Shown: one piece after another, positions 24,222 through 27,096 of the stretch
Position numbering within the stretch: position 1 is the first letter of the stretch
Layout: each line of letters begins with the position of its first letter
From: Haloferax mucosum ATCC BAA-1512
GTDB lineage: Archaea; Halobacteriota; Halobacteria; Halobacteriales; Haloferacaceae
DNA: 64,000 bases
Direction of reading: 5' to 3'
Assembly: GCF_000337815.1 (NCBI RefSeq)
Contig: NZ_AOLN01000004.1
Location: 186,001 to 250,000 of the forward strand
Position numbers and translations under genes: made by a program
The notes under the pieces: model-generated
The model's input: the letters and a program-made list of their open reading frames with translations, nothing else
The model's database searches: none
What the model was told of the DNA's origin: nothing

Positions 24222-24902
24222 TTACGAGTCCGATTGTTCCGAAGTCGGTTCGGCGGACACATTACGGCGGAGCGCCGCTTGATCGACGACACTGACGACA
24301 GAGCGGTTCGCTAAATCGACCGTGATCGAGTACTGCAACTCGCCCGTTTCGGGATGGTCTACGAGGACGACAGCGCGATTATCGACGTACCGGTCACGAG
24401 TCGCACGCCGGACGACGGCACCGTCGTCGGTCTCATTAAGTTCAGTATCGACCCGTGCGGTGAACGTGGTCGTTTCGCCGGTCGAGTTGTCGGTATCGAT
24501 AGCAGTGAGTTGGCCGGTCGAAATTTTCGGGACCGGCGAGACGGTAATAGAGGAGTCATCCAACACCCCTAACTGACGGACAGTTTCGTTGTGTCGCGCG
24601 ATCTCGACTGCCTGTTTTCGTTCGGTCGCGTTCAGCGGCGTCTGTCTCTCAGCGCTCACTTGGAACTGCGTCGAATCGACCCGCCGTATCTCGATGTGGC
24701 TGACGTTGGAGATGTTGCCGACGACGGTCGCGTTTTCCTTACCGTTCGTGACCGTTACGTTGTCCGCGCCGACCACGAACTCCGCGTTCGACCCGGTCCC
24801 CGCCGAACCGACGCCGAACGAGGTCCCCACACCCGCGAGACAGACGCCAACGACCGCAAGAACGACGAGGATAGCGAGCCGAGAGCGAATTTCAGTGTCC
24901 AT
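24222..24902 (-). CDS. exported protein, paralogue of the 25755 protein
   Basis: 226 aa. The N-terminal hydrophobic segment (LAILVVLAVVGVCLAGVGTS) is a signal peptide or anchor; the remainder is acidic and extracellular. A central segment TPLNATERKQAVEIARHNETVRQ resembles LTSSEVETAWEITQTNETVRS in the protein at 25755, and a later strand pattern (LTAIDTD... FTARVD) corresponds to VQAVVALD there, so the two are probably related. It is divergent from the membrane-anchored HTH gene, with repeats of the GAAACGCG type between them. Confidence 0.65.
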   Translation of the reverse strand: MDTEIRSRLAILVVLAVVGVCLAGVGTSFGVGSAGTGSNAEFVVGADNVTVTNGKENATVVGNISNVSHIEIRRVDSTQFQVSAERQTPLNATERKQAVEIARHNETVRQLGVLDDSSITVSPVPKISTGQLTAIDTDNSTGETTTFTARVDTELNETDDGAVVRRATRDRYVDNRAVVLVDHPETGELQYSITVDLANRSVVSVVDQAALRRNVSAEPTSEQSDS

Positions 24903-24941
24903 ACATGACTATTGGGTGAAAGACCAGTTGAATATCGGGGT

Positions 24942-24986
24942 GAAACGCGTTCGGAAGGCGTTTGAAACGCGTTTCACGGCGTTTCA
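24942..24986. promoter_or_regulatory. GAAACGCG/CGTTTC repeat cluster (site A)
   Basis: Contains GAAACGCGTTC (24942-24952), the perfect 12-bp palindrome GAAACGCGTTTC (24964-24975) and CGTTTC (24980-24985). CGTTT elements start at 24959, 24970 and 24980, about one helical turn apart. It lies between the divergent genes at 24902 and 25037, beside a TATA-like GATATTC near 24930. A similar cluster lies at 25616-25656. Confidence 0.65.
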
Positions 24987-25036
24987 GAACCCTACAAACG
25001 GTAATCGTTAAGACTTAGTGTTAAATATCTGTCCGT

Positions 25037-25594
25037 ATGAATTTCCGCGCCCTCCGGAACGTCAACCTCGTCGCGGCGGTCGTCTTTATCGCCGCCACGC
25101 TCACTCTCGCCGTCCAACTCCTGTCGCCGTCACCGGTCGTCGTCTCGCTCGGTGACAACGGGATGCAGACGGCGCAAATCGGCCAGTATTTCACCTACAA
25201 TGAGGTTGCGGTCGTCGTCGTCGCGGCGGTGATTTGCGGCTCCAGCGGAACGTATCTCGTACTCCACGACCGGTCGAGCCACGTCTCGAACCGACCGCAC
25301 CCGTCGAACGCGCCGCATGCAACCGACCAAAGCAGAGTGATGACCAACGGTGGCACAGAAACCGTCCAGGCCGACCGAGAGCGGTGGGAATCGACCGCGG
25401 AACGCCTCAAGAACAACGAGGCGGTGATTTACACAGCCTTACTGGAGGCCGATGGCAAACTCGCACAGCGGAAGTTAGTCGAAGAGACCGACCTCTCGAA
25501 AGCGACGGTGAGCAGGACGCTGGACAAACTCGAAAACCGAAGCCTCGTCGAGCGCAAACGCAGTGGGATGGGGAATACGGTATACCTCCAATAA
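25037..25594 (+). CDS. membrane-anchored winged-HTH protein
   Basis: 185 aa. Two hydrophobic segments (about residues 11-30 and 55-76) form a hairpin, then a polar linker leads to a C-terminal winged HTH (about 112-185: EAVIYTALLEADGKLAQRKL, TDLSKATVSRTLDKLENRSL). The HTH resembles MarR/IclR-type and haloarchaeal DUF7343 domains. The DNA-binding part should face the cytoplasm, so this could be a one-component surface sensor. It lies between two genes for related exported proteins, each preceded by matching repeats. Confidence 0.8.
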   Translation: MNFRALRNVNLVAAVVFIAATLTLAVQLLSPSPVVVSLGDNGMQTAQIGQYFTYNEVAVVVVAAVICGSSGTYLVLHDRSSHVSNRPHPSNAPHATDQSRVMTNGGTETVQADRERWESTAERLKNNEAVIYTALLEADGKLAQRKLVEETDLSKATVSRTLDKLENRSLVERKRSGMGNTVYLQ

Positions 25595-25615
25595 TCGCCG
25601 AAACGGCCAGTAACA

Positions 25616-25656
25616 CGTTTTGAGACGCGTTTACAACGGCTTTCCAACTCGTTTCC
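25616..25656. promoter_or_regulatory. CGTTT repeat cluster (site B)
   Basis: GAGACGCGTTTAC at 25622-25634 matches the palindrome of site A (TTTGA-purine-ACGCGTTT in both), with further CGTTT elements starting at 25616 and 25650. A TATA-like ACATATGA follows at about 25664. It lies upstream of the exported-protein gene at 25755. Confidence 0.55.
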
Positions 25657-25754
25657 AATCAAAACATATGAGGTCTTTCACACAACGTGGAACCGGGTGA
25701 ATCAGAGGAGACGGACTTCCGCTCTTCGGTTCACCACCAACAGGAACGAACACC

Positions 25755-26363
25755 ATGCGACACAAAACAATCGCGCTCGCAGTGGCCGCACTCGTCGCCT
25801 TCGGGGCGAGCGGTGCGGTCGCCGCCTCGATAACGATGGACTCACCGGCTGTGACAGCCCTCCAATCAGCCTCGGACGCACCGTCCTCCGAGAGCCACAC
25901 GGTAGCGGTAATCGACCCACACGACAGGCTCACTTCGAGCGAGGTCGAAACGGCGTGGGAAATCACACAGACAAACGAGACGGTTCGAAGCCACTTCGAC
26001 GGTGAGTCGTCGCTCCACTACCAAATCGAAGCCGAAGCCGACGAGCTTCAGGTTTACGTGGCCAAAAACGACACGGCACCGCCGCGCGTGCAAGCCGTCG
26101 TCGCTCTCGACACGCAGTCGGTCTCGGCGGTCAACGAGATAGAAACCGTCGTGGCGGCCGACGGAAAGGCCACGGGACGGATAGCCCCGCAAGGACAAGA
26201 CGGGGGTGCGTTCGAGAGCGGTGAGGAAGTTACGCTTCGCACAGTGCCCGAAACCGGAGCCTCGACCGACGAAACAGACAGAGAGATACCCCCCGGAGAG
26301 ACGTTTAACGCGACGGTGACGGACGATGAATTCCGCGTGAACAACGAATCGAGCGGCGAATAA
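25755..26363 (+). CDS. exported protein, paralogue of the 24222 protein
   Basis: 202 aa. A classical Sec signal peptide (IALAVAALVAFGASGAVAA, cleavage near residue 24) is followed by an acidic extracellular domain. The segment LTSSEVETAWEITQTNETVRSHFD and the strand VQAVVALDTQSV resemble the protein at 24222. The C-terminus is a low-complexity acidic tail. No membrane anchor, so it is either free or associated with the partner protein. Function unknown. Confidence 0.65.
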   Translation: MRHKTIALAVAALVAFGASGAVAASITMDSPAVTALQSASDAPSSESHTVAVIDPHDRLTSSEVETAWEITQTNETVRSHFDGESSLHYQIEAEADELQVYVAKNDTAPPRVQAVVALDTQSVSAVNEIETVVAADGKATGRIAPQGQDGGAFESGEEVTLRTVPETGASTDETDREIPPGETFNATVTDDEFRVNNESSGE

Positions 26364-26613: not shown

Positions 26614-27096
26614 TTAGTTGTCTACCGAGAAGTCACCCGAGAGGTCGCGGCTGTTGTCGGAGTAGTTGAGGACACCGACAGCCGCACTGTCTTCGGGGAT
26701 ACCGACGGGCGACTCGACGTTGTACTGGCCGCTATCGGTCACGCGTGCCGTGTAGTACTTCTCCGTACCCATGTCGAGGAAACAGAGACCGAGTGGGAGT
26801 TCCGGGGAGTACGAAACGTCGAATTCGTAATACCCGCCCTCGACGATGGCCAACGAACTAACGGCGGAGATTTGGCCGGGTGTAAGGTCGTTGAAATCGC
26901 GGCTGAAAGGCCACGACGCAAGCGTCGTGATACCGTCGCCGACGACGTGAACGTCCTCCGGGTCGACGTGACCCGCGGTGACTTCACTGGCCGGCGTCTT
27001 GGATTCCGCCGCCGCACCGCCGGTTGCGACCGCACCGAGACCAACAGTAGTTACCGCGCTTTTCCGCAGGAACGAACGCCTTGTCTGCTGTGACAT
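26614..27096 (-). CDS. Tat-exported hypothetical protein
   Basis: 160 aa. A Tat signal (QTRRSFLRKSAV, residues 4-15) ends near GGAAAE (residue 31) with no lipobox cysteine, so the mature protein should be free outside the cell. The mature part is a single acidic domain with beta-rich character (GYYEFDVSYSPELPLGLCF, KYYTARVTDSGQYNVES) that could be a small beta-sandwich. No family recognised. Confidence 0.7.
   Translation of the reverse strand: MSQQTRRSFLRKSAVTTVGLGAVATGGAAAESKTPASEVTAGHVDPEDVHVVGDGITTLASWPFSRDFNDLTPGQISAVSSLAIVEGGYYEFDVSYSPELPLGLCFLDMGTEKYYTARVTDSGQYNVESPVGIPEDSAAVGVLNYSDNSRDLSGDFSVDN

Follow-up and report, generated by a model that had tools for sequence, protein, structure and literature searches.

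A predicted archaeal signalling cassette: a transmembrane regulator with an exported partner, a secreted protein and an operator at its own locus

The window, by which we mean the whole stretch of 64,000 nucleotides that was analyzed (C4:186001-250000 of the 3.37-Mb haloarchaeal genome G000), carries a trio of genes in which A2 is divergent from A1 and A3 lies downstream of A1 (Table 1), a gene order that, together with its coordinates, had been given correctly in an earlier sequence-only reading of this DNA. In A1, hydrophobic segments at residues about 5-36 and 56-77 follow a positive-inside pattern, with basic residues preceding the first segment, a nearly uncharged loop between the two and a long, charged C-terminal part; an N-in, C-in topology with a cytoplasmic winged helix-turn-helix (wHTH) is predicted from these segments and the charge pattern. 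Residues 125-184 match DUF7343 (PF24034) with 47.3 bits against a Pfam cut-off of 27.6, and the wHTH also scores above the cut-offs of MarR/TrmB models. Hydrophobicity, charge and the DUF7343 match uphold, as a prediction, the previous description of a protein with two membrane segments and a cytoplasmic winged HTH. A1 combines, in a single chain, a predicted transmembrane (TM) region with a DNA-binding domain. This is the structural definition of the transmembrane transcription regulators (TTRs) that are widespread in archaea (Demey et al. 2023, PMC10269533), and A1 is best read as a putative TTR that would act on transcription from the membrane. Its two TM regions place it among a minority of TTRs, and a partner gene or operator like that of A1 is not described in the passages of that article that were consulted. 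Since a presumed TATA lies ~30 nt ahead of the A1 ATG, the A1 mRNA would be leaderless. To the left of the window, at L160 3497-4789 (G000 C4:178496-179788), there is a single-chain membrane regulator with a wHTH of the same type, whose outside part looks rich in Asp-based (calcium-binding-like) repeats. Such single-chain DUF7343 regulators have the same broad C-terminal wHTH behind a membrane segment but keep the outside part in the same chain, whereas in the cassette it is a separate gene, A2.

Table 1. Genes and predicted regulatory features of the trio (positions in the window)
Feature	Position	Strand	Remarks
A2 (P0002, 226 aa)	24222..24902	-	exported, single N-terminal TM helix anchor; likely A1 partner/sensor
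Operator lattice, A2|A1 divergent gap	24911..24985	.	11-bp-phased GAAAC/GTTTC half-sites; R1 5.0e-19
A2 promoter element GTTTC-N20-CTTTCA	24917..24946	-	flanks presumed TATA; conserved in A6 alignment (29 species)
Perfect palindrome GAAACGCGTTTC	24964..24975	.	12 bp; sole exact copy in genome
A1 (P0001, 185 aa)	25037..25594	+	two TM helices and cytoplasmic C-terminal wHTH; predicted regulator
Second, degenerate operator array upstream of A3	25619..25687	+	R1 3.0e-11; 27-species alignment
A3 promoter element	25651..25680	+	length and layout as in A2 element
Predicted hairpin, A3 mRNA leader (tentative)	25696..25735	+	-26.4 kcal/mol, z -2.76
A3 (P0003, 202 aa)	25755..26363	+	secreted; signature helix in common with A2

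The exported proteins on both sides of A1 are covered by no Pfam or NCBIfam family. A2 has one N-terminal hydrophobic segment (residues 3-34) and 10 N-glycosylation sequons, and A3 has a signal-peptide-like N-terminus and four sequons. A two-sequence BLASTP comparison of A2 with A3 gave no match, and profiles of 39 A2 and 25 A3 sequences aligned in one region only (48 columns, 93.9%, E 1.6e-7), centered on a segment that the sequence-only reading had flagged as shared by two related proteins; their relatedness is thus limited to this one helical segment and does not extend over their whole lengths. The signature pattern is LNATERKQAVEIARHNETVR in P0002 and LTSSEVETAWEITQTNETVR in P0003, so the flagged segment exists, with N instead of the expected T or S at the first position in P0002. 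In AlphaFold2 models (mean pLDDT of 79 for A2, mostly above 90 for the A3 core, 49-128), the signature segment lay, in both proteins, in a helix that leads into beta strands. Their top Foldseek matches in the PDB were copper amine oxidases (E 0.01-0.05, low TM-scores), a hint, short of an assignment, that A2 and A3 may have a copper amine oxidase N-domain or PepSY-like fold. No Pfam match to PepSY was obtained among the 39 A2, 25 A3 and nine non-halophile A2-like proteins, and searches of PDB sequences with the A2 and A3 profiles returned nothing informative.

The recurrence of the trio in related genomes, proposed earlier as a check, was observed at two scales. Among 58 relatives, all three proteins were matched in three (G016, G039 and G058), with order and orientation the same as in the window; across 391 genomes of the order, 85 carry A1, 83 carry A2 and 81 carry the two together (Fisher p 3e-76). 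A2 lies immediately upstream in 86 of the 93 A1 copies (57 in divergent and 29 in same-strand orientation, with a median gap of 146 bp) and is not adjoining in seven. A search with an alignment of eight A1 sequences revealed 69 A1 loci in GTDB genomes, including Halorubrum, Natrinema, Natrialba, Halorientalis, Halohasta, Halosimplex, Haloarcula, Halorhabdus, Natronomonas and one Halostella plasmid; most of the haloarchaeal loci have a divergent A2 and a downstream A3, and Natrinema- and Haloarcula-type loci show the order A3-like (divergent), A2, A1, and their A3-like proteins are larger. These comparisons show the linkage of the predicted genes, and because the surrounding gene families are mostly not common to the loci, the trio is the unit. 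The 14 other sampled species of the host genus gave weak, paralogue-level matches only, so the cassette is patchily distributed, by transfer or loss. A gene for a Tat-signal protein lies beside the trio (window 26614-27096, -), and a homologue (E 2e-42) lies beside the cassette of Halorussus amylolyticus (L069 5308-5802, +); this protein is possibly a fourth member of the cassette in a few genomes. A2 matches with one in-frame stop codon (G192, G075, G251, G213, G394, G175 and G097) are either broken copies or profiles overrunning the true end. ABC-transporter neighbors were seen in Natrialba and Haloarcula loci, and a link of these to the cassette was rejected as not general.

The intergenic DNA is more conserved than the exported protein that it precedes: aligned in 29 species, the A2|A1 gap has a mean column identity of 71% (consensus TGAAACnGCCGTGAAACGCGTTTnAAACGnGTTTCGAACGCGTTTCAnCnCAGnnTTGATGnGGTCTTTCACCCAA), compared with just 34% for A2 proteins. 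The repeats are thus conserved upstream of orthologues, one of the two points on which the sequence-only reading had staked its claim. Half-sites of the same orientation are spaced by 11 bp 38 times and by 22 bp 13 times, and the offsets from GAAAC to GTTTC peak at 7, 18, 29 and 40 (7+11n); the predicted operator is a lattice whose sites recur roughly once every helical turn and lie on a single face of the DNA. A similar array, ending in GTTTCCAATCAA...CTAT..GGTCTTTCA, was found upstream of A3 in 27 species. Half-site counts were significant in the A2|A1 gap (p=0.002) and not upstream of A3 (p=0.31). Repeats had been claimed upstream of both exported genes, together with a perfect 12-bp palindrome; the palindrome is present once only, and the repeats are clear in the A2|A1 gap and degenerate upstream of A3, where the array is recognized by the model described below. 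Archaeal activators usually sit upstream of the TATA, and repressors between the TATA and the start. Half-sites, placed by eye, flank the presumed TATA on both sides, a placement that would suit either activation or repression.

The predicted regulon is small. The R1 model, built from the 29-species A2|A1 gaps alone, without A3 promoters, was run against whole genomes and in G000 recovered the A2|A1 gap itself (5.0e-19) as well as the A3 promoter (3.0e-11); among the best 150 first-look candidates, a number that weak single sites could escape, every other match was either one of these regions read on the opposite strand or noise (0.08 and worse). The two regions also score highest in G016, G039 and G058 (A3 promoter at 1.2e-6, 3.0e-6 and 0.0015), and the exported-protein intergenic region was the only one found in G040 and G056. 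The 30-bp promoter-element pattern occurs in G000 at the A2 promoter, the A3 promoter and C18:101709, the last of which was judged a chance match, with surroundings that read by eye as a YjbQ-like coding frame. One-mismatch palindromes elsewhere in G000 were treated as background, since the full-array model gives those places no score. As R1 and the promoter pattern return the two promoters of this locus, the predicted regulon is confined to it. A PspA/IM30-like gene, recognized by eye, follows A1 in the Natrinema-type loci L005, L006, L060 and L064-L066, and could place the cassette within a general envelope-stress (PspA/IM30) response, as one of its branches; such a gene, however, adjoins A1 in one lineage only (four loci in the neighborhood comparison), and the operator search gave no convincing site at other genes in G000 and only the exported-protein region in G040 and G056, and we consider this reading highly improbable.

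In most orthologues, the stretch from the A3 promoter element to the A3 ATG (25686-25754) can fold into a long hairpin, with differing sequences. In the orthologous leaders, taken from L002-L099, folding reached z -6, and the mean z was -3.04 for 28 leaders, -0.04 inside A1 and -1.72 at the A3 coding start. Exchange of the arms between species weakened the mean pairing (-28.8 vs -18.6 kcal/mol), and the native pairing was best in 10 of 26 rows, with that of the window not among these; no Rfam match to the leader was obtained. The evidence comes from the folding of each sequence, as the leaders are too variable for alignment-based covariation. With covariation unusable, the A3 coding start fairly structured and the arm-swap test mixed, the putative hairpin is a lead, and our claim for it is modest.

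Relatives of A1 were also found in records labelled Methanoperedens, Bathyarchaeota, Hecatellales, Thermoproteota, Thermoplasmata, Nitrososphaerales and Diapherotrites. Because several of these deep loci are metagenome bins, with taxon names as labelled in the records, the breadth is more safely stated as many archaeal lineages than as this exact list. The TM helices, outside loop and wHTH of A1 are conserved across archaeal loci, the non-halophile relatives keeping the loop LLNPTPIQI.IEGQ...TQIPGFFT and the same wHTH, and most of the non-halophile genes are preceded on the same strand by a gene for a short TM-helix protein; nine non-halophile A2-like proteins match the haloarchaeal A2 profile (97.7%, E 2.5e-12), and A3 was not seen outside haloarchaea. 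The search for the palindrome upstream of homologues, another check suggested earlier, found GAAACnnGTTTC with zero or one mismatch in 10 of the 13 non-halophile loci examined, followed in most non-halophile loci by an element resembling TTTATGGTGTTTCA; two further loci, L162 and L164, which played no part in defining the motif, carry a perfect GAAACnnGTTTC. The palindrome is absent at the pairs or candidate pairs of L079, L093 and L096, and the GAAACnnGTTTC operator was not seen in one family with an A1-A2 pair (L171, L173, L174 and L180). The recognition helix of this family reads SRALYGLES, compared with SRALDLLES in most others (D-to-Y and L-to-G), suggesting in this single lineage that operator loss and the change in the recognition helix may be linked. 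These distributions also bear on whether some other DNA-binding protein targets the repeats, with A1 merely a neighbor. That A1 binds them is our inference, and A1-A2 pairs without the palindrome exist, as such a view would allow; it nevertheless appears decidedly unlikely, as the array accompanies the A1 locus in haloarchaea and most other lineages, is found nowhere else in G000, and is missing from the one lineage in which the recognition helix of A1 is altered.

Collectively, we favor, with a probability of about two-thirds, a self-contained archaeal signalling cassette consisting of the transmembrane regulator A1, its partner A2, the secreted A3 and an operator at their own locus, which would probably let the cell adjust these surface proteins to something outside. 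The idea of a self-contained regulon with a regulator in the membrane and proteins outside, already raised in the sequence-only reading, is well supported by prediction through linkage, operator and genome-wide search; its surface-sensing part is a conjecture. The two TM helices would hold the MarR/DUF7343-type wHTH of A1 at the inner face of the membrane, where A1, as the DNA-binding protein that tracks the lattice, may bind GAAACnnGTTTC and lie along the half-sites, one per helical turn (11 bp). Bound to sites on one face, a membrane protein would keep the DNA lying along the membrane, with several A1 dimers docking on that face of the DNA drawn to it. The lattice would control the A2 promoter, probably A1 itself and, via the second copy, the A3 promoter, with no further genes in G000 under its control. 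The outside domain of A2 would receive the signal and relay it to A1 through the membrane by a putative A2-A1 contact. Of the two exported proteins, A2 is the better candidate for the sensory role, since it nearly always accompanies A1, also outside haloarchaea, whereas A3 was seen in haloarchaea only; the same promoter element and the A2 signature helix suggest that A3 may be the output, which is secreted, or may compete with A2 for its ligand as a form of feedback. Alternatively, A1 might be an autoregulator without sensory input, tethered by its TM helices, with A2 and A3 as structural envelope proteins under simple feedback. A regulon confined to its own locus is what this would predict, and half-sites between the TATA and the start, positioned by eye, suit a repressor; a mere tether, however, needs neither the conservation of the TM helices and outside loop nor their link to A2 across lineages, and we regard pure feedback as rather unlikely. 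Returning to the signalling cassette, A1 and A2 may form an ancient pair with an operator and promoter layout GGAAACCAGTTTC ... TTTATGGTGTTTCA that spans Halobacteria, Methanoperedens, Bathyarchaeota/Hecatellales, Thermoplasmata and DPANN-labelled genomes, holding DNA flat on the membrane via the 11-bp lattice, to which A3 with its hairpin leader would have been added in haloarchaea as a feedback output; we put forward this deeper history tentatively, as a possibility with less than even odds.

The cassette is analogous to two known systems and a member of neither. ArnR/ArnR1 of Sulfolobus is a membrane-bound one-component regulator with two TM segments; it forms multimers and regulates archaellum and pili genes, and its target promoter carries inverted-repeat boxes (Bischof et al. 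2019, PMC6396743). A1 resembles it as an archaeal membrane regulator with two TM segments and inverted-repeat boxes; ArnR, in contrast, has an N-terminal HTH of the PF13463 type, a HAMP/sensor region and C-terminal TM segments, whereas A1 has N-terminal TM segments and a C-terminal wHTH, and the predicted regulon of A1 is its own locus rather than archaellum and pili genes. Membership of A1 in the ArnR family was rejected on this reverse domain order and on a score of 15.9 against the HTH_27 model, below its cut-off of 22.2. In ToxR/ToxS of Vibrio, a winged-HTH regulator embedded in the membrane is paired with an operon partner that is membrane-anchored and acts outside (PMC7496328), an arrangement that A1 and A2 recall by analogy only, as ToxR has another DNA-binding domain, the opposite domain order, a large periplasmic domain of its own and many distant targets. 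The OmpR-type winged HTH (Trans_reg_C) was absent among the 24 Pfam matches of A1, and an assignment of A1 to ToxR was rejected. We found no published description of the A1-A2 pair or its operator in the openly accessible literature.

How signals cross the archaeal membrane other than by two-component systems is poorly understood, and targets are known for few of the membrane-bound transcription factors of archaea. In this cassette, a predicted regulator and a candidate partner come with a precise operator that is conserved over many lineages and restricted to one locus, and the 11-bp phasing of this operator provides a concrete and testable model of the way in which a protein embedded in the membrane may hold its DNA. 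Membrane DNA binding, partner control and feedback would be testable in a tractable haloarchaeon with one reporter. Halorubrum sp. Atlit-26R has two full copies of the cassette (L044 and L045) and a partial A1 at L044 8191-8607, and this double cassette would be handy for testing the operator specificity of paralogues.
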